Of a stretch of 37,460 bases of DNA, positions 27,229-36,633 are shown piece by piece; the first letter of the stretch is position 1, and each line of letters begins with the position of its first letter. The DNA lies in IMG/VR virus record IMGVR_UViG_3300021952_000482, positions 1 through 37,460 of that record; one strand, given 5' to 3'. The notes under the pieces are model-generated. The model was not told the DNA's origin and did not search any database. It saw only the letters and a program-made list of their open reading frames with translations. The stretch comes from a virus. Position numbers and translations under genes: made by a program.

Positions 27229-27818
27229 CCACCATCATCCTTCTTGGCGAACTGGGCAAGCGCTTCGGTCGAAGGCACAAGATGGCAGTTGCCTCGGCAG
27301 CGGAAGCGGTGCGTGCCCTGTGCGCGAACTTTCCCACCTTCGAGCGAGAGCTCGTGGTTTCAGGTGAGCGAGGTGTGGGCTACCGGGTGCTGGCCGGGCG
27401 GGACGCCTTGAATCTTGATCGGCTGCATGAGCCCACAGGGCAGCAGCACATCACGATTGCACCCGTGATCTCCGGTGCTGGGGGCAATGGACTGGGCCAG
27501 ATCCTTTTGGGGGCAGCCCTGATCGCTGTGTCCTGGTGGAACCCGATGGGCTGGGCTGCTGCTGGATCGTTTCTCTCGCAGGCCACGCTCTATTCGGTGG
27601 GTACTTCCATGATTTTGGGTGGTGTGGCCCAGATGATTGCTCCGACGGCCAAGTCTTCTGACCCTTCCGAACGACCAGAAAACCAGCCGAGCTACGTTTT
27701 CAACGGCGCTGTGAACACCACGGCCCAAGGGCATCCCGTGCCTGTGGGTTACGGGCGGCTGATTGTGGGTTCGGCCGTGATCAGCGCCGGCATTGATGTG
27801 GATGAAATAGCTGTATGA
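27225..27818 (+). CDS. Tail assembly protein, lambda gpI-like
   Basis: The 197-aa protein has an N-terminal ubiquitin-like segment (ILLGELGKRFGRRHKMAVAS), then AVRALCANFPTFERELV and a Gly/Ala-rich hydrophobic stretch near residues 85-130 (including ILLGAALIAVSWWNPMGWAA). This matches the Lambda_tail_I family (PF06805). It works in tail-tip assembly with gpJ and gpK. It overlaps both neighbours by four bases. Confidence 0.92.
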   Translation: MTTIILLGELGKRFGRRHKMAVASAAEAVRALCANFPTFERELVVSGERGVGYRVLAGRDALNLDRLHEPTGQQHITIAPVISGAGGNGLGQILLGAALIAVSWWNPMGWAAAGSFLSQATLYSVGTSMILGGVAQMIAPTAKSSDPSERPENQPSYVFNGAVNTTAQGHPVPVGYGRLIVGSAVISAGIDVDEIAV

Positions 27819-30800
27819 GCACCGTTGATTCGCAATTGATTGTCGGAGCTGGCGGTGGCGGCAAATCCGGGGGAGGCAGTGCTCGCGTGGCCCAGGAAGC
27901 GCCCGACAGCCTGCGCTCCAAGGCTTATGCCCGGGTGGTTGACCTCGTTTGCGAGGGCGAAATTGAGGGCTTGGTTGGTGGTTTGAAGTCAGTCTATCTG
28001 GACGATACACCCATCCAGAATTCAGACGGCTCGTACAACTTCACCGGTGTGACGCTGGAGGCACGGACCGGAACCCAGCAGCAAAACTACATCCCTGGCT
28101 TTTCCTCTGTGGAAAACGAGGTCTCGGTCGGGGTGGAGTTCAAATACGGTCAGCCCGTGGTGCGCTCCATCACCGACCCGGACGTGGACGCTGTACGCAT
28201 CAAGGTCAGCATCCCGACGCTGACGCTGCAGGACACGACCAATGGTGATCTGAACGGTACTTCGGTCAGCTATGCAATTGACCTGCAGTCCCGTGGAGCC
28301 GGTTATGTGCAGATCCTGCAAGACACGGTTTCAGGCAAAACTTCATCACGCTACCAGCGCAGTTACTACGTTCCTTTGTCCGGGACTGGTCCCTGGGATG
28401 TGCGCTTGCGCCGCATCACGGCCGACTCGACGCAAACCAGCCTGCAAAACAAGACCTTCCTCGAGTCCTACACCGAGGTGATCGAGAGCAAGCTGCGCTA
28501 CCCCAACAGCGCGCTGATGGCCTTGCGGGTCGACGCCTCGCAATTCACCTCGATTCCCCGGCGCAGCTATGACCTCAAGCTCCTTCGGGTTCGCATCCCG
28601 TCGAACTACTTTCCCGAGACCCGCTCCTATGCCGGTGTCTGGGATGGCAGCTTCAAGGTCGCTTGGACGGACAACCCCGCTTGGTGCTTCTATGACCTGG
28701 TGACCAATACCCGCTACGGTCTTGGCAATTACATCCTTGAGTCGCAGGTCGACAAGTGGGCGCTGTACCGGGTGGCCAAGTACTGTGACGAGTTGGTGCC
28801 CAACGGGCTGGGTGGCTATGAGCCACGCTTTACCTGTAATCTGTACCTGCAGACCCGGGAGCAGGCCTACAAGGTGGTGCAGGACATGGCTTCGGTGTTC
28901 CGGGGCATGGCTTATTGGTCGGGTGGCGCCATCACGGTCACGCAGGATGCGCCGCAGGATCCGGTCTACCAGTTCACCGCTGCCAACGTTGTCGATGGTG
29001 AGTTCGCCTATCAGGGGTCATCTGCCAAGGCTCGGCACACAGTGGCGCTGGTCAGCTGGGTGGATCCGGATGATTTCTACCGCCAGAAGGTGGAATACGT
29101 CGAGGACCTCGCAGGCATCGCCCGTTATGGAGTGGTTCAGGCCGATGTGGTGGCCATGGGGTGCACCTCTCGTGGTCAAGCCAACCGGGTGGGCAAATGG
29201 CTGCTGTACTCCGAGCAGTCCGAGTCGGAGATCACCACTTTCCGCACCGGACTCGAGGGTGCGGTGGTTCGGCCTGGTGATGTCATCAAGGTGGCCGATG
29301 CCAGCCGGGGTGGCATGCGACTGGGTGGGCGCATTGCTGCGGCCACAACCGTCAGTGTCACGCTCGATCAAGACCTGCCCGCAGGATCTTGGCGGATCTC
29401 CGTGGTGCTACCCACCGGTGTCGTTGAAGAGCGGCAAGTGGGGTCGCTCTCTGGCCGGACTGTGGGGGTGACCAGCGTGTTTTCGATGGCTCCCCAAGTT
29501 GGCGCGATTTGGGTGCTGTCTTCCACGCTGGTGGAGGCTCAGCTCTTTCGTGTGGTGCAAGTCGCTGAAAGCGAACCCGGCATTCACGAAATCACGGCGC
29601 TGGCGCACAACCCCAGCAAGTACGCAGCCATCGAGCAGGGCCTGGCCTTGCAGCCTCGTGTCATCACGGTGCTCTCGACCACGCCAGCGGCCCCGACGAG
29701 GCTGACCGTGACCGAGAGCTTGTACCGAGTCAAGGATCAGGCACTCGTGCTGATCCAGCTCGGATGGGATCAGGTCTTTGGGGCACTGGAGTACCAGGCG
29801 ACCTACCGCGTCAACGGCGGCAACACGGTCACGCTGCCCAAAGTCTCCAGCACCTATCTGGAAATCCGAAACGCTGAGGCAGGTGAATACGTCTTCACGG
29901 TCCGGGCTGTGGGTGTGTCGGGCAAGCTGGGCAATTCCGCAAGCCTGAGCCAAAGCATTCTGGGCAAGCTCCAGCCGCCTGACGATGTGCAGGACTTTGT
30001 GGTGTTGCGCCGAACGACCGATCTGCTCCTGAGCTGGAGTGCCAATACCGATGCAGACCTCTCGGGGTATGAGGTACGGGTCGGCACAGGGTGGGATTCG
30101 GGTGTGATGGTCGGGCAGACAGCGGGCACGCAGCTGGTGCATGACCAAAGCGAGTCGGGTCAGTACAACTATCACATCCGTGCTTTTGACACCTCCGGAA
30201 AGTACAGCCAACACGTCACCACCTTCCAGCTCACTTTGCTCGCTCCCTCATCGGTGCGGCAATTCGATGTGGTGCAGTCAGCCAACCGGCTGGAGTTTCG
30301 TTGGCTGCCAAATCCCGAGCCGGAGGTCGTGGCTTATGAGTTGCGGGAAGGGGGTGCCTGGGACACCTCGATCTTCATTGCCGAGGTCAAGTCCAGCAGT
30401 TTCACGCTGCCCTCGGGCTTTGATGGGGAGCGCAAGTTCTGGATCAAGGCGATCGCATCGCCCGGCATTTACTCGGAAGATGCCACCTTCGTCTCAACAG
30501 TGGTGGCGCAGCCCCAGAACGCCAATCTGCTGGTGACAGTGGATGCTCAGGCGACCCGATTCCCCGGCGTGAAGCATTTCGCCTCGGTCGAATCGGTCAA
30601 CAGCCTGGATGTGCTGCGCATGGACAGCGGGGTGACCCAGTCAGAGTACCTGTTTGAGGTAAACCTACCCACCAGCTACCGTGCGCAGAACACCTTGCTG
30701 GCAAGCATCGGGGCAACACTGGACGACCGCGAGACCTGGACCTCAGCCAATTACGCCTGGATCAGCTCGGCTGCTAAGCGGCAATGGACCTATGACGGGG

Positions 30801-31324
30801 CACTCAAAAGCATCGAAGCGAGGTTTCAGATGGCCCGTGAGGATGCGCTGCAAGCAGGAGAGCTTTACGGCTGGCGACTCAATGGTGTGCTCAGCGGCTA
30901 CGGAAACCCCGTTGGCTCTGAAGCCGTTGGCGTGGGATATGGAGATGGGCGCTACGGCAGTGGTGTGCTGGTCAAGGACACAACCAAGGTGTCCTGGGGG
31001 GTCAGCATTCCGGGTGTCTTTCATGTGAGCTTCTGGTTCATCCCAAATCAGATAACCACATCGGTTATGTGGGCGGCCACGGGTTCCGGTGTGAGCCTCC
31101 TGGTCGGCTATGACTCGGTGGCAGGAGCGTTCTTTCTGGAGGACCAACTCTTTAACCGGGTGGTGGTGCCTTACTTCGTTAACGTGGCCGATCGCATCTG
31201 CATCGGCGTGTGTCAGACGGCAACAGAGCGCAGGCTATTTGTTGGAAAAATGGGAGGGGAAGTTCAAAGCGCAAGTAAGCCACTGGCACCTACTTCAGGG
31301 TATTCATCCCTCAAGCTGTACTGA
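27815..31324 (+). CDS. Host-specificity/tail tip protein, lambda gpJ-like
   Basis: The 1169-aa protein follows the lambda J layout. It starts with a Gly-rich stretch (GAGGGGKSGGGSARVAQ), then SKAYARVVDLVCEGEIEGLV, the diagnostic gpJ opening. A large baseplate-like core contains VRIPSNYFPETRSYAGVWDG and NPAWCFYDLVTNTRYGLGNY. From about residue 620 three fibronectin-type III-like units follow, and from about 1045 a strand-rich end looks like a LamG/concanavalin carbohydrate-binding module. It forms the central tail tip and contacts the host receptor. The variable C-terminus is the most likely binding part. Confidence 0.95.
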   Translation: MSTVDSQLIVGAGGGGKSGGGSARVAQEAPDSLRSKAYARVVDLVCEGEIEGLVGGLKSVYLDDTPIQNSDGSYNFTGVTLEARTGTQQQNYIPGFSSVENEVSVGVEFKYGQPVVRSITDPDVDAVRIKVSIPTLTLQDTTNGDLNGTSVSYAIDLQSRGAGYVQILQDTVSGKTSSRYQRSYYVPLSGTGPWDVRLRRITADSTQTSLQNKTFLESYTEVIESKLRYPNSALMALRVDASQFTSIPRRSYDLKLLRVRIPSNYFPETRSYAGVWDGSFKVAWTDNPAWCFYDLVTNTRYGLGNYILESQVDKWALYRVAKYCDELVPNGLGGYEPRFTCNLYLQTREQAYKVVQDMASVFRGMAYWSGGAITVTQDAPQDPVYQFTAANVVDGEFAYQGSSAKARHTVALVSWVDPDDFYRQKVEYVEDLAGIARYGVVQADVVAMGCTSRGQANRVGKWLLYSEQSESEITTFRTGLEGAVVRPGDVIKVADASRGGMRLGGRIAAATTVSVTLDQDLPAGSWRISVVLPTGVVEERQVGSLSGRTVGVTSVFSMAPQVGAIWVLSSTLVEAQLFRVVQVAESEPGIHEITALAHNPSKYAAIEQGLALQPRVITVLSTTPAAPTRLTVTESLYRVKDQALVLIQLGWDQVFGALEYQATYRVNGGNTVTLPKVSSTYLEIRNAEAGEYVFTVRAVGVSGKLGNSASLSQSILGKLQPPDDVQDFVVLRRTTDLLLSWSANTDADLSGYEVRVGTGWDSGVMVGQTAGTQLVHDQSESGQYNYHIRAFDTSGKYSQHVTTFQLTLLAPSSVRQFDVVQSANRLEFRWLPNPEPEVVAYELREGGAWDTSIFIAEVKSSSFTLPSGFDGERKFWIKAIASPGIYSEDATFVSTVVAQPQNANLLVTVDAQATRFPGVKHFASVESVNSLDVLRMDSGVTQSEYLFEVNLPTSYRAQNTLLASIGATLDDRETWTSANYAWISSAAKRQWTYDGALKSIEARFQMAREDALQAGELYGWRLNGVLSGYGNPVGSEAVGVGYGDGRYGSGVLVKDTTKVSWGVSIPGVFHVSFWFIPNQITTSVMWAATGSGVSLLVGYDSVAGAFFLEDQLFNRVVVPYFVNVADRICIGVCQTATERRLFVGKMGGEVQSASKPLAPTSGYSSLKLY

Positions 31325-31360: not shown

Positions 31361-31396
31361 AGGCGTTGCACCCATTGGGGCAACGCCTATTTTTTT
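31361..31396 (+). terminator. Hairpin with T-tract before the fibre module
   Basis: Arms AGGCGTTGC (31361-31369) and GCAACGCCT (31380-31388) form a perfect 9-bp stem, and seven T residues follow (31390-31396). GGAG of the next ribosome-binding site starts on the very next base. It ends the tail-tip transcript or acts as a switch before the fibre genes. Confidence 0.85.
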
Positions 31397-31407
31397 GGAG
31401 AAATCTC

Positions 31408-31854
31408 ATGATGGATGAAGGCATGCAAATCAAGGGCTCGCTCACGCTTGTGCTGGCCAAGCCAAGTGGCGAGGTCGAAGTGGTCCACAAAGACAACATC
31501 ATCGTCAACGGCGGCTTTGACTTCGTGGCCGATGCGATTGGCAACTCTGGTAGTCGCCCCGGTGTGATGGGCTGGATTGCGGTGGGGACGGGCACGACTG
31601 CTGCGGCCTCGACTCAGACCGCTCTTGTCACAGAGATCAAGCGCAACGCCTCGACCTACGCCCACACGGCAGGCACCAAGGTGTTCACCTTCACGGCCAG
31701 CTATGCGGCGGGCGACGCTACAGGCGCATTGACCGAGGCAGGTGTGTTCAATGCAGCCTCGGCTGGAACCATGTTTGATCGTGTGGTGTTCCCGGTGGTC
31801 AACAAGGGGGTGGACGACAGCCTGACCGCTGTTTTCACCTTCACGATGAGCTGA
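31408..31854 (+). CDS. Putative tail/fibre accessory protein
   Basis: This 148-aa protein is not a named family to me. It is strand-rich, beginning QIKGSLTLVLAKPSGEVEVV, then KDNIIVNGGFDFVADAIG and IAVGTGTTAAASTQTAL, ending in a hydrophobic strand (TAVFTFTMS). Similar small beta proteins lie between gpJ and fibres in several phages and are virion components. The ATG at 31408 follows GGAG; an upstream start at 31366 would lie inside the hairpin. A fibre or tip role is inferred from position. Confidence 0.75.
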   Translation: MMDEGMQIKGSLTLVLAKPSGEVEVVHKDNIIVNGGFDFVADAIGNSGSRPGVMGWIAVGTGTTAAASTQTALVTEIKRNASTYAHTAGTKVFTFTASYAAGDATGALTEAGVFNAASAGTMFDRVVFPVVNKGVDDSLTAVFTFTMS

Positions 31855-31867
31855 TTGGGCGATTGAA

Positions 31868-33058
31868 ATGGCCGAGACCGTCAACGTCTCAAGCTCGCCG
31901 GGGGCCAATTACACCTGGACCTCTGGCAAGTTTGCATGGAGCAGCGCCACAGCCGGTAAGAACTGGACGAGTGCCTATCCGGCGGTCTACAGCCTGAGCG
32001 TGGCCACGGACATCAGTTTCACGGAGTTGATCCAGAAGCTGGGAATCAAGCGAAGCTCCGAAACCATTGCCTTTGCTGAGAAGCAAGGCAAAGGGCTGGT
32101 ACTGAACAAGTTCGAGGTCATGAGTTTTGCCGAGACCTACACGGACCTCATTGCTTTTGTTCTGAGGTTTGTTGAGTCCTTTGCGTTGGCTGAAAAGAAC
32201 GGGCTTTCCAACACCAAGCGGGTGTTCGAGGTGTTTCAGGTGGCCGAGGGGTTGGCGCGACAGATTGCATTGCGAAAGTTCGAGACGCTGGCGCTGGCTG
32301 AGACCTACACCGACCTCATTGCATTCATCTTGCGCGTGGGCGAAAGCTTCAGCTTTGTCGAGACACCATCAAAGGCGCTCACCAAGCCACAGGCAGAGAC
32401 TTTCAGGTTCACTGAGTCGCTGTCCAGGTCGCAGGTCAAACGGATCTCCGAGACGTTTGTGTTCGCTGAGTTTTTTGGACGGACCGTAGCCTATCGAAAA
32501 GCGATCAGCGAAGGGTTTGCGATTGGGGAGTCGCTGCGTCGTGCGCAGACCTTGAAGCTGGCCGAGGCCTTGAGCCTTGCTGAGCAATACAGAAGGCGAG
32601 CAAACGGTGTCATCAGCGACATGATCGTTGCAAGCACAGAGATCACCGAGCAGGACTTCATTGACATCCTGGAGTCTGGCCATCCTCCGGGGTACACCAA
32701 TTTCCGGGACTTCATTCAGGGCGACTACACCTACCAGCGGGCGCTGTTCAGGGCGATTTTGACCTCCAGCAATGCTGATCGGGGCTACATCGATGGTCTG
32801 CGCGTCACGGTGGATGTGCCCGATGTCTTTGACCGTGGCACTGCCCAGGTGAGCAATGCGGCCAATGGCGTGACGGTTGTCTTTTCCCGGCAGTTTCGTG
32901 TCTCGCCAGAGGTCACGCTCACCTTCAAGGGGGGCACCACTGTGGCCGTCCCCCGAATCCTGGGCACGGTATCCACCACAGGTTTCACCGCAGTTCTTGA
33001 AAACACCTCCGGCACCCGGGTCACAGGGGCCATTTCTTGGGTTGCACAAGGGTATTAA
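31868..33058 (+). CDS. Fibre-region protein with regular glutamate-anchored repeats
   Basis: The 396-aa protein has no named family I recognise. Its N-terminal 45 residues resemble a virion-attachment segment (TWTSGKFAWSSATAGKNW). From about residue 47 to 247 it contains ten copies of E-x5-E with the pattern E-[ST]-[FL]-x-[FL]-A-E. The second Glu falls at 53 (partial unit), 71, 89, 109, 127, 145, 165, 183, 201, 221 and 239, so spacing cycles 18-18-20. A strand-rich C-terminal domain follows (FRDFIQGDYTYQRALF, VTLTFKGGTTVAVPR). It is probably a structural shaft with a tip domain. It abuts the next fibre gene exactly. Confidence 0.8.
   Translation: MAETVNVSSSPGANYTWTSGKFAWSSATAGKNWTSAYPAVYSLSVATDISFTELIQKLGIKRSSETIAFAEKQGKGLVLNKFEVMSFAETYTDLIAFVLRFVESFALAEKNGLSNTKRVFEVFQVAEGLARQIALRKFETLALAETYTDLIAFILRVGESFSFVETPSKALTKPQAETFRFTESLSRSQVKRISETFVFAEFFGRTVAYRKAISEGFAIGESLRRAQTLKLAEALSLAEQYRRRANGVISDMIVASTEITEQDFIDILESGHPPGYTNFRDFIQGDYTYQRALFRAILTSSNADRGYIDGLRVTVDVPDVFDRGTAQVSNAANGVTVVFSRQFRVSPEVTLTFKGGTTVAVPRILGTVSTTGFTAVLENTSGTRVTGAISWVAQGY
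32006..32608 (+). repeat. Coding repeats with 168-base super-period
   Basis: The segment encoding residues 47-247 of the preceding protein repeats every 54, 54 and 60 bases. This makes a 168-base (56-residue) super-repeat; for example the residues AETYTDLIAF recur exactly one super-period apart (from A88 and from A144). Such a pattern is subject to recombination and can change the shaft length. Confidence 0.85.
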
Positions 33059-33982
33059 ATGCAAAACTACACCGAAATTCCATCGTCAACGACGCTGTCG
33101 GATTCGTTGTCTCAGATCCTGAACAACGACAAGACAGCGCTCTCGCTCTCAAGCGGAACGTCTTTCCCGACGGTCAACTTGCAACTTGGCATGCCTTGCT
33201 TCAGGACAGACGAGCAAAAGCTCTACATCCTCACGGTGGTCAGTCCTGCTTCTTGGAAGATGGTCATTGACCTCTCCGCCACAGTTGGCAAGGTGGCCAA
33301 TGCGGACCTGCTCGATGGCATTGATTCCACTGGGTTCGCTTTGGCGGGTCACAACCATGACGCGGCATATGCCGCGCTGGGCCATAACCACAATGCCGCC
33401 TACCTGGGCATCACGGCCAAGGCTGCCGATGCTGACAAGCTCGATGGCTATGACTCGACAGCCTTTGTGCGATCGGTCAACGGGTACGGTCCGGATGCCA
33501 ATGGCAATTCCAGTGTGCCTATTGATCTTTCGAGCCGTGTGGCCAAGTCTGGCGACACCATGACTGGCACCCTCACGGCGCCCAGGCTGCAAATTGCAGG
33601 AACGGCCAACTATCTGGACATGGTCGATCAGGACTGGGGGACTCGCTACCTACATCACAACCAGGGACTCATGGGATTTTTGAAATCCGATGGCAACTGG
33701 GACATGTACATGAACAACAGTGGTCAGATGTGGACAGCCAATTACGGATGGCTACACGACTACTTCTTCAGCACTATCGCCAACTGTTTCATCGGCAACT
33801 GCCCGGGTAACACGGGCAATTGCAGCCCAGTAGGCAACAACGCGACTTCTGTGGTTTCGAACTGCGGTAGCGCATCTTTTGTCCGAGATGAACTGGTGGA
33901 CAACGGCAGCCAGATTGCTGTCCGAAGAACCCAATACAACTTCAATTGCAACTGCAACTGCAATTGCGATTGCTATTGCTGA
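33059..33982 (+). CDS. Tail fibre with Asn-Cys-rich C-terminus, likely substrate of a maturation system
   Basis: The 307-aa protein is a short tail fibre. Typical fibre signatures are LAGHNHDAAY and LGHNHNAAYLG (about 95-116) and KSGDTMTGTLTAPRL (163-177). Past residue 240 it becomes Cys-rich, with C243, C248, C255 and C269, each after Asn, then C297, C299, C301, C303, C305 and C307 at the end. Eight of these ten Cys follow Asn; the last two follow Asp and Tyr. Cys is the final residue. The next three genes, 13 bases away, encode an oxygenase-like protein, an unknown and a radical SAM/SPASM enzyme. I infer the Cys/Asn segment is modified after translation. Metal binding or cross-linking are alternatives. 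Confidence 0.88.
   Translation: MQNYTEIPSSTTLSDSLSQILNNDKTALSLSSGTSFPTVNLQLGMPCFRTDEQKLYILTVVSPASWKMVIDLSATVGKVANADLLDGIDSTGFALAGHNHDAAYAALGHNHNAAYLGITAKAADADKLDGYDSTAFVRSVNGYGPDANGNSSVPIDLSSRVAKSGDTMTGTLTAPRLQIAGTANYLDMVDQDWGTRYLHHNQGLMGFLKSDGNWDMYMNNSGQMWTANYGWLHDYFFSTIANCFIGNCPGNTGNCSPVGNNATSVVSNCGSASFVRDELVDNGSQIAVRRTQYNFNCNCNCNCDCYC
33944..33979 (+). repeat. Six hexanucleotide repeats ending in TGC at the fibre 3' end
   Basis: Six six-base units each end in TGC (Cys): four start with AAT or AAC, one with GAT and one with TAT. They encode the alternating Asn/Asp/Tyr-Cys tail and run directly into the stop codon TGA. Such a repeat could gain or lose units by slippage, changing the number of Cys residues. 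Confidence 0.9.
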
Positions 33983-33995
33983 TCCAGGATAAACC

Positions 33996-34574
33996 ATGAA
34001 CTCTTTGAACAACATCTTCCCGGCTCCGGTTCTTCGCATCCAGGGGCTTTTGAGTCCCGCCGAGGTGGAGCTGGCGACTGAGCTTGCAACCAAGGCTAAC
34101 GAGCGCCTGAATGACCATCAGGTCCCGTACTCCCGAACTTACCGTGACAGCCTGGACTTCATGTTCCCGGAGTTCTTCAAGCCCATCTTCCGACGCTTGC
34201 GCCGCAGCATCGAGGACGAGTTCAAGTGCAACGTCAGCAACATGGTGGGACGCGAATCCATTTTTCGCTACGGCCAGCATCTGCCATTCCATACTGAGCC
34301 GCACGCTGATATTTCTTGCGTGCTGTGGCTGGACTTCCCCGCAAAGCCCGACCCATCCAGGCGCGACTACTCGGGCATGTTCTGCCTGCATAACCCGCAT
34401 CTCTTGTTTGGTGGCCGCGCAACAGGGGTGTTTGGCAATATCAACCACATGGAAATGCCATCGCCTGGTGATGCCTTCGTTTTCCCTTCTCACATGCCGC
34501 ACTTTGTGTTCCCGTACAACGGCGAGCGCCCTGGCGTGGAACTTCACTTTGAAATGCTTGCGGAGGCTGCATGA
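33996..34574 (+). CDS. 2OG-Fe(II) oxygenase-like protein
   Basis: The 192-aa protein resembles the small putative 2-oxoglutarate/Fe(II) oxygenase group. HTEPHADISCVLWLDFP (99-115) gives an H-x-D pair (H103, D105). FPSHMPHFVFPYNGERPG (163-180) gives the distal histidine (H169, or H166) and the Arg that binds 2-oxoglutarate (R178). The double-stranded beta-helix order is right. Such enzymes hydroxylate amino acid side chains or small molecules. It follows the Cys-rich fibre by 13 bases and overlaps the next gene by four. The fibre's Asn, Asp or Tyr residues are attractive substrates, as Asn/Asp hydroxylation is known for this superfamily; this is inference. Confidence 0.72.
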   Translation: MNSLNNIFPAPVLRIQGLLSPAEVELATELATKANERLNDHQVPYSRTYRDSLDFMFPEFFKPIFRRLRRSIEDEFKCNVSNMVGRESIFRYGQHLPFHTEPHADISCVLWLDFPAKPDPSRRDYSGMFCLHNPHLLFGGRATGVFGNINHMEMPSPGDAFVFPSHMPHFVFPYNGERPGVELHFEMLAEAA

Positions 34575-35266
34575 AGCTCGTTACCTTCAATGCCAGCGTC
34601 GATGAAGAAAAGGCTGTGCGTGTAGATCAAACTGCTGAAGGCTACACCGTCTCATTTGCTGGCGCATCCATCAACATTGACGTACAACTTTTTAAGCAGG
34701 GCGAGCTGCAGTTCCTGATGTATGGCAAGCAGTATCAGAGCGAAGTCATCGGAATCGTGTCTCAGCGCGAATATGTAGACAGCCGCGATGGCCTGACGAT
34801 CCTGGCTCAACACGGCCTGACAGATGGCCTCGGCTGGTTTTACTTCGGCGAAACCACCGAAGAGGCCTGTCTATGCATTACCAAGGCCATGGCGGCTCAG
34901 TGCCCCTTCGACATCGTGCAGCCGGGCAAGCCTCGTGATGTTCTGCCAGGTATCTTCCCCGACAGCGAAAGGCTGGGGGTTCGCAACCTGGCCAAGATCG
35001 CGCTGCTGCGCAAGCTCAACCCGCTCGACAGCCTCGCCGCCCTGGAAAAGCAGGTCGACTTGCTCAGCTCCCTGGTCATCCAACTGGCCAACCTGGTGCC
35101 AGGCCACGAGGGCATTGCCCTTGTCGACCACCTCAAGCACATCATCACCGATGCCAGCGCAAACGCAGGCAAGAGCGACGAGCATACCGTCGCCAGCGTG
35201 ATGTCTTTCAAGATGGCGCTGCGCCAGGCGCAGGCCGATTACTTCGCTGCACGCGACGGAGCCTAA
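34571..35266 (+). CDS. Unknown protein in the fibre-modification operon
   Basis: I do not recognise this 231-aa protein. Residues 1-95 look strand-rich (KLVTFNASVDEEKAVRV, then YTVSFAGASINIDVQLF, and GWFYFGE further on), and the C-terminal 110 residues look helical, with DSLAALEKQVDLLSSLVIQL. No catalytic motif is visible. It overlaps the oxygenase gene by four bases, and its stop codon overlaps the radical SAM start by one base, so all three are probably made together. It may bind the fibre substrate, like a peptide-recognition or chaperone subunit, or modify it. This is speculation based on position. Confidence 0.8.
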   Translation: MKLVTFNASVDEEKAVRVDQTAEGYTVSFAGASINIDVQLFKQGELQFLMYGKQYQSEVIGIVSQREYVDSRDGLTILAQHGLTDGLGWFYFGETTEEACLCITKAMAAQCPFDIVQPGKPRDVLPGIFPDSERLGVRNLAKIALLRKLNPLDSLAALEKQVDLLSSLVIQLANLVPGHEGIALVDHLKHIITDASANAGKSDEHTVASVMSFKMALRQAQADYFAARDGA

Positions 35267-36633
35267 TGATGGCCAAATTCATCCTTACTGCCATTAATCC
35301 TGAAAATGGCCAACGCACCCATTTCCACTACGACAACGCAACCAGCGAGTTGACCCGCGAATCTGGTGAGCCAGTGGTTCATGCGGTCGAAGTCGCTAAA
35401 CGCGTAGAGGCTCCAGCAGTCTCCAAGCAGACACCACTGGGCAAGTCCAGCCCCCGCACCCTCAAGATCAGCCTGGGCCTGTCTTGCAACTACGAGTGCG
35501 AATACTGCTCTCAGCGCTTCGTGCCGCGCGCGGTCGAAACCAACCCGGGCGATGTGCAGGCCTTCATCGATGGCCTCGACGCCTGGGTGACGAGCCCGCC
35601 CGAGAAGGTCGAGTTCTGGGGTGGCGAGCCTCTGGTCTACATCAAGACCATGCGCCCCCTGGCCGAGGCCATCAAGGCCAAGTTCCCCAAAGCAGATCTG
35701 TCGGTCATCACCAACGGCTCGCTGCTGAGCGATGACATCAACGAATGGCTTGATCGCATGGGCTTCAATGTCGGAATCTCGCACGATGGCCCAGGCCAGC
35801 ATGTGCGCGGCCCCGACCCCCTGAAGGATTCGCAGCAGCGCGCCGCCATCATGGCGCTTTACACCCGTCTGGCCCCGCAACGGCGCATCAGCTTCAATGC
35901 GATGGTCAATCGCGAGAACGTATCGCGCGCAGCTATCCAGCGCTTTTTTATCGAGCTGACTGGCGACCACATGGTCCCCATCGGCGAGGGTAGCTTTGTT
36001 GATGCCTATGACGAGGGTGGCATTGCTCACTCGCTTCAGCCAGATGAGCTGCACGCCTACCGCAATCTTGCCTTCCACGAAATCCGTACTGGCCAGGCCG
36101 CTAACGTCCAGGCCGTGAGTAGCAAGACGGCCAGCTTCGTCAATTCCATCCGTAGTCGTCGTCCTGCTTCCAGCCTGGGCCAGAAGTGCGGCATGGACAA
36201 GTCCGACAGCATCGCAGTCGACCTGCGCGGCAACGTCCTGACCTGCCAGAACGTGAGTGCAGCCAGCACCGCTCCCAATGGCCAGGCTCACCGCATTGGA
36301 CATGTATCCGACCTGACCGCTGTCAAGCTCGACACTGCCACGCATTGGAGTAAGAGGGGGGACTGCCCGAACTGCCCGATGTTGCAGATTTGCCAAGGCT
36401 CCTGCATGTTCCTGGAAGGCCCCCTGTGGGACCGGTCCTGCGAAAACGCCTTCTCTGACGCTGTACCGATCTTCGCCGCTGGCTTCGAGTTCTTGACTGG
36501 CTTGGTACCGATCTATATCGACGGTCCCCAGCGCGATGATCGAAAGGACATTTTCGGATTTCTGCGCTCGGATCAGGGGAATGCCGTCAGCCCCTCTGCG
36601 AAACGATTTCCTATCCGAGTTGTCGCCGCATAA
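35266..36633 (+). CDS. Radical SAM/SPASM enzyme, probable fibre maturase
   Basis: The 455-aa protein has the radical SAM cluster motif CNYECEYC (C74, C78, C81), then FWGGEP (118-122) and the TIM-barrel segments VITNGSLLS and VGISHDGPG. The C-terminal SPASM domain shows C308, the GNVLTC (G322-C327) pattern, then C367, C370, C376, C380 and C392, the usual ligands for two auxiliary Fe-S clusters. SPASM enzymes of this type mature peptides, making thioether or other bonds at Cys or other residues. An N-terminal extension of about 65 residues may be for substrate binding. It ends the operon that begins with the Cys-rich fibre, so the fibre is the natural candidate substrate. Confidence 0.93.
   Translation: MMAKFILTAINPENGQRTHFHYDNATSELTRESGEPVVHAVEVAKRVEAPAVSKQTPLGKSSPRTLKISLGLSCNYECEYCSQRFVPRAVETNPGDVQAFIDGLDAWVTSPPEKVEFWGGEPLVYIKTMRPLAEAIKAKFPKADLSVITNGSLLSDDINEWLDRMGFNVGISHDGPGQHVRGPDPLKDSQQRAAIMALYTRLAPQRRISFNAMVNRENVSRAAIQRFFIELTGDHMVPIGEGSFVDAYDEGGIAHSLQPDELHAYRNLAFHEIRTGQAANVQAVSSKTASFVNSIRSRRPASSLGQKCGMDKSDSIAVDLRGNVLTCQNVSAASTAPNGQAHRIGHVSDLTAVKLDTATHWSKRGDCPNCPMLQICQGSCMFLEGPLWDRSCENAFSDAVPIFAAGFEFLTGLVPIYIDGPQRDDRKDIFGFLRSDQGNAVSPSAKRFPIRVVAA

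Follow-up and report, generated by a model that had tools for sequence, protein, structure and literature searches.

Results

A conserved repeat of 18- and 20-residue units runs through a 396-residue fibre protein encoded in the window, by which we mean the whole 37,460-base virus record, that of a freshwater phage, analysed here. The repeat is real, and the best explanation of the protein, to which we assign a probability of roughly 0.6, is that it forms the subunit of an adsorption fibre, most likely homotrimeric, at the tail tip of a siphovirus, with an N-terminal anchor, a shaft built of even-length 18/20-residue repeats and a lectin-fold tip. Its reading as a fibre is supported by two observations, namely, that the gene follows the one for the tip attachment protein J and that the best matches of the tip are the tips of trimeric fibres and tailspikes. 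In this respect, the preliminary description of this DNA, which had spoken of a fibre-region protein, was right. The genes and segments concerned are as follows.

27815..31324, + strand: gene for the tip attachment protein J (phrog_31, 1018 bits; Pfam PF24801 and PF13550)
31366..31854, + strand: phrog_5417 gene, which separates J from the repeat fibre (8.7e-24)
31868..33058, + strand: probable tail-fibre gene with the repeat shaft, 396 aa; an ORF 3' of J and of the phrog_5417 gene, with homologues of 396 and 450 aa
31868..32008, + strand: N-terminal region with a W/Y/G motif, residues 1-47, probably the attachment segment (an alignment of 8 members has 18 invariant columns out of 47)
32048..32605, + strand: repeat shaft, residues 61-246, whose ten units have 18, 20, 18, 18, 20, 18, 18, 20, 18 and 18 residues, with the partial unit of E53 just upstream (motif spacing and unit profile)
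32102..32161, + strand: first 20-residue unit, residues 79-98, with AETYTDLIAF (ETY.DLIA conserved in both length classes)
32270..32329, + strand: second 20-residue unit, residues 135-154, with AETYTDLIAF (motif spacing)
32438..32497, + strand: third 20-residue unit, residues 191-210, with GRTVAYR (present in both length classes)
32600..33055, + strand: tip module, residues 245-396 (stand-alone proteins of Achromobacter phages JWF and 2-1 share 38-39% identity with it)
32825..33055, + strand: H-type-lectin-fold beta-sandwich, residues 320-396 (pLDDT 82-92 per ten-residue block; Z 8-9.5)
33059..33982, + strand: next fibre-like gene, of the MQNYT.IPSS type, C-terminal NCNCNCNCDCYC

The repeat and its length classes

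The 396-aa open reading frame contains ten E-x5-E motifs, which start at residues 65, 83, 103, 121, 139, 159, 177, 195, 215 and 233 and have their second Glu at residues 71, 89, 109, 127, 145, 165, 183, 201, 221 and 239, that is, at spacings of 18, 20, 18, 18, 20, 18, 18, 20 and 18. A partial eleventh unit is marked by E53, 18 residues N-terminal of E71, and once it is counted, the ten units plus one partial and the ten spacings (18, 18, 20 and so on) given in the preliminary description are correct. Equally, the decapeptide AETYTDLIAF, said there to recur one super-period apart, is found at residues 88-97 and 144-153, an offset of 56. Within residues 47-247, the longest chain of E-x5-E motifs at 18/20 spacing has 10 members, against a maximum of 3 in 20,000 shuffles. 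The self-identity of the repeat region is 34% at an offset of 56 and 25% at 18, and only 2-5% at 19, 55 and 57 (2% at the last two). Since the three 56-aa blocks share no more than 48, 27 and 25% identity as protein and 51, 44 and 38% as DNA, the duplication is old and held by selection, rather than the product of a recent expansion.

Relatives numbered 105 in a scan of viral contigs, 80 of them being retained, and 22 in one of bacterial and archaeal contigs, the latter including Limnohabitans, other Comamonadaceae/Burkholderiales and Polynucleobacter. The repeat is conserved at more than 100 homologous loci, mostly in freshwater phages and Burkholderiales contigs; contig titles naming other phyla may be binning errors. 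On one contig, from Polynucleobacter sp. Tobar2m-G34 (L103, 5959-7366), the repeat gene is split over two overlapping frames and looks broken. Full-length members come in two lengths, 396 aa (n=41) and 450 aa (n=54), and every unit in either class has 18 or 20 residues. The spacing pattern is 18, 20, 18, 18, 20, 18, 18, 20, 18 in the short class and 18, 20, 18, 18, 18, 18, 18, 20, 18, 18, 20, 18 in the long one, where in both cases D is allowed at the motif and individual members may miss at least one motif. In other words, the 450-aa class has three additional 18-mers, a 54-aa indel, while the 20-mers stand at equivalent places in both classes, with ETY.DLIA in the first two and GRTVAYR in the third. 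Strict 18-18-20 order is limited to the 396-aa class, and the exact 56-residue super-period claimed earlier is thus a property of that class, five consecutive spacings of 18 preceding the next 20 in the longer proteins. What the comparison of repeat number in related phages does show is that the periodicity itself is kept in full-length homologues of both lengths, rather than lost. A three-unit structural period, which one could read from the 54-aa indel, was dropped, since the indel may be a single event.

Conformation of the shaft

The unit profile, built from 372 18-mers of 42 representatives, has K/L at position 1, a hydrophobic residue at 3, E at 5 (97%), L/F at 7, L/V/F at 9, E/D at 11 (97%), L/Y at 13 and R/K at 15, with A/S/G/T occupying positions 4, 6, 8 and 10. 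Small residues amount to 6-11% at odd and 64-67% at even positions, and their fraction at every even position exceeds that at every odd one (18-mers, U=0, p=2e-4; 20-mers, p=3e-5), the effective sample of this test being 18 independent positions, since the units are copies of one another. Conservation alternates along the unit, too. In the spectra, in which a coiled coil would show as a heptad (3.5) or 18/5 hydrophobic stripe, volume and conservation peak at 180 degrees, and hydrophobicity peaks at about 103 and 78 degrees, which are the mirror images expected if only odd positions vary; since the units are copies, all of these peaks overstate significance, and the 18-position test is the honest one. 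The volume-alternation score over 120 aa is 47.8 for the window protein, against a 99th percentile of 12.4 among 775 background ORFs, and the background ORFs scoring above 14 are all members of the repeat family, or fragments thereof, that were missed by the filter. For T4 gp5, gp12, gp34, gp37 and fibritin, the score is at most 6.3. Because the units, and the 54-aa indel as well, are of even length and the alternation of small and large residues is strict, we favour an extended or beta-type shaft, and consider this conformation probable.

Could the shaft be helical instead? Each 18-mer would then make five turns of an amphipathic helix (18 residues being 5.0 turns), the 20-mers would be breaks or skips, and the result would be a bundle or a coiled-coil stalk with the same lectin-like tip. 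AlphaFold2, run on the whole protein (29 sequences) and on the shaft alone (50 sequences), does return helices, with pLDDT of 70-82 at about residues 196-246 (the last ~50) and below 50 for most of the shaft. What is more, the hydrophobic positions 3, 7, 9, 13 and 17 lie on one half of a helical wheel, and the Lys-Glu and Glu-Arg pairs K1-E5 and E11-R15 fall at i,i+4; this amphipathicity, reasoned from the profile, counts against a beta conformation. That said, a helix has no need of small/large alternation at every position, insertions of 2 residues would rotate its face by about 200 degrees, Gly reaches 19-23% at positions 6 and 8 with Pro at 8 in some units, and the related repeats described below are rich in Thr, Val, Ile and Phe. 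Weighing these points, we regard a helical shaft as unlikely, if still to be reckoned with.

A monomeric beta-solenoid with one 18-residue coil per unit, be it of the left-handed hexapeptide type or flattened, strikes us as very improbable. Three hexapeptides per coil do make 18 residues, even lengths would keep the in/out parity and the 20-mers could be corner loops, but the interior would have to be filled with K/E/E/R or with small polar residues only, and identical Glu would stack in register. The hexapeptide pattern [LIV]-[GAED]-x2-[STAV]-x is absent from the unit, which has the fitting length of 18 but Glu/Asp instead of small residues at positions 5 and 11. AlphaFold2 usually recognises monomeric solenoids given alignments of this sort, and here it predicted none. 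Of the regular solenoid or helical shaft that had been proposed at the outset, the regular shaft stands, its unit length being kept at the homologous loci; the solenoid or helical form is less likely, given the low pLDDT of most of the helices and the parity and alternation that favour an extended or beta form. Conversely, a prediction of this quality is too weak to show that a regular repeat is absent.

Searched by sequence with the profile or with individual proteins, the PDB gave no credible match for the shaft, no Pfam, NCBIfam or PHROGs entry matches the shaft of the window protein, and a literature search for an 18-residue phage repeat returned nothing on point. The family phrog_12240, whose function is unknown, does match the shaft in some members of the long class (best 3e-8), though not in the window protein; its matches in other genomes (L274-L277) were set aside, as they align to regions of the model other than its shaft part and are devoid of the E-x5-E repeat. 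A tblastn search of phages with the shaft or the N-terminus found no relatives except a weak match in phage 83-24; two more (H6 and H7) were dropped as antisense to annotated genes. The tip dominates the Foldseek and VIA lists, and a missing shaft match there hence carries no information.

Tip and N-terminus

In the AlphaFold2 model, the 77 C-terminal residues take the form of an H-type-lectin sandwich (pLDDT 82-92), with the six-stranded beta-sandwich characteristic of that fold. Structural matches include the Pam1 tailspike (Z 9.5), AP22 gp53 (9.3), LKA1 gp49 (9.1), Helix lectins (8.1-8.5) and R2 pyocin (8.0), together with many viral proteins titled H-type lectin or tail fibre. With Pfam H_lectin (PF09458), the tip scores 18 bits, below the gathering cut-off of 24, and for this reason the lectin assignment is a statement about fold and not about family membership; 25 of 29 family members match this model at E<0.1 (best 6e-4). 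By analogy with the trimeric fibre and tailspike relatives of the tip, the fibre would be a trimer. The W-rich motif at the N-terminus has no match in named phages.

Downstream genes

In most loci, the protein of the next gene (33059-33982 in the window) ends in (N/D)C repeats. A radical SAM gene is present in 61 of the 61 loci with such a tail and in 0 of the 3 with another C-terminus, counted over repeat-family loci with at least 3.5 kb downstream, which are mutually related and hence not independent events. The radical SAM enzyme of the window (35266-36633) passes the cut-off for a SPASM domain; its nearest model is that of the PapB ranthipeptide maturase, at a score far under the cut-off of that model. 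Between the Cys-tailed fibre gene and the radical SAM gene lies a 2-oxoglutarate/Fe(II) oxygenase-like gene (33996-34574; PF13759, 22.7 vs 27 bits), which is found in 26 of the 61 loci with both tail and radical SAM. Achromobacter phage JWF also has a radical SAM gene, and its Cys motif precedes a Hint-like domain: the fibre protein (L001, 6604-8055) has NCNCDCNCNCSC and then directly the Hint/intein-like domain, as if self-processing served to expose the Cys-rich end. As far as sequence goes, the co-occurrence of the (N/D)C tail with a radical SAM/SPASM enzyme whose nearest model is PapB suggests a thioether-modified phage fibre end; a literature search for radical SAM enzymes with tail fibres gave nothing on point. 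Contigs L189 and L190 encode, downstream of J (about 5.0-6.6 kb), fibre-like proteins with long glycine-rich repeats, which are near-identical and about 45 residues long (GYGGDKAIFGYG...NLVSNTGVVA).

Discussion

How would such a fibre work? Residues 1 to about 47 would anchor it to the tail, the even-length 18/20-residue repeats of residues 61-246 would make up a stiff shaft, and the C-terminal H-type-lectin-fold tip would contact the host surface, the stalk probably holding the host-recognition head away from the phage tail. With large or charged side chains at the odd positions (K/L1, E5, L/F7, F/L/V9, E/D11, L/Y13, R/K15) and small ones (A, S, G, T) at the even positions, the simplest structure would be an extended beta-strand with one face tightly packed, whose other face would provide the hydrophobic contacts and the Glu-Lys/Arg pairing from chain to chain, as in other trimeric beta shafts. 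The number of units would set the length of the shaft, which the three more 18-mers of the 450-aa class would extend. One can go further and suggest, tentatively, that the E-x5-E unit is the basis of a triple-stranded shaft of a new kind, with a small-residue face and a salt-bridge face, which is reused on unrelated tail proteins and varies in steps of three units (54 residues). Few repeat architectures of phage fibre shafts have been solved, and an unnamed even-length repeat, which has two fixed lengths and is seemingly shared by two tail proteins that are otherwise unrelated, would add a new natural module to them. In addition, the repeat would aid the annotation of a common, unlabelled fibre gene of freshwater Burkholderiales phages and prophages.

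Comparison with known systems

The triple-stranded beta-helix of T4 gp5, a trimeric beta shaft with rows of Glu/Lys salt bridges and a VxGxxxxx octad (PMC4576200), offers an analogy for how the present shaft may work. That octad, with its Gly, is not matched by our unit profile, however, and gp5 is without strong small/large alternation (a score of 2.3). The adenovirus-type triple beta-spiral has a repeat of ~15 residues with a conserved Gly/Pro turn, whereas the 18/20 units have no conserved Gly or Pro position. As for the tip, Acinetobacter phage AP22 gp53, LKA1 gp49, the R-pyocin fibres and the Pam1 tailspike share the fold of residues 320-396, but their stems are not known to consist of this repeat, which has no sequence match to any solved chain.

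In Achromobacter siphophages, an E-x-h-x-h-x-E repeat with spacings of 20, 18 and 20 forms the C-terminus of phrog_384 proteins. These virion proteins (Achromobacter phages 83-24, JWX, SE2 and AMA2; Burkholderia phage BcepGomr gp17) share with the shaft the motif E/D-x-h-x-h-x-E/D; the repeat is looser in BcepGomr gp17 and phage Simon, and Knedl has no such repeat in this comparison. The Achromobacter phage repeats are of beta-type composition, rich in Thr, Val, Ile and Phe, and in phage 83-24 the repeat protein adjoins a gene of the phrog_5417 family, as in the window. The phrog_384 proteins differ in having few units, another N-terminal protein, a gene position after the tape measure gene and no lectin tip. 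Aligned by hhalign to the A5 repeat, the shaft gives 66 columns with 33% identity and a probability of 38% (11-12% for Simon and BcepGomr), and the shaft HMM scores most phrog_384 repeats, AMA2 and hasilly excepted, above all shuffled controls. Judged from these alignments, a common origin of the two repeats is plausible.

Finally, the tip also occurs without the shaft. Achromobacter phages JWF and 2-1 encode a protein of 155-157 aa that starts at the point corresponding to the end of the shaft and shares 38-39% identity with the tip. These proteins, JWF gp27 and 2-1 gp26, resemble ours in gene position, directly after J and before the MQNYT.IPSS fibre gene, and in the radical SAM gene found downstream, but have neither the N-terminal motif nor the repeat shaft. 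In contigs L189 and L190, the open frame of J contains a relative of the 2-1 tip sequence (31% over 82 residues). One could argue that the protein serves to extend J, as a structural connector or plug, with no receptor binding and with its lectin fold as a mere trimerisation cap; a related tip sequence that is a domain of J in L189/L190 and a tip protein that directly follows J in JWF would agree with this, and lectin-fold domains of phage fibres can serve as caps. However, the fold is the one found at the distal ends of fibres and tailspikes, and we hold such a connector to be distinctly unlikely. Returning to the adsorption fibre, since the tip stands without a shaft in JWF and 2-1 and J carries a related tip sequence as a fusion in L189 and L190, the shaft and the W-rich N-terminus together are a separable module.
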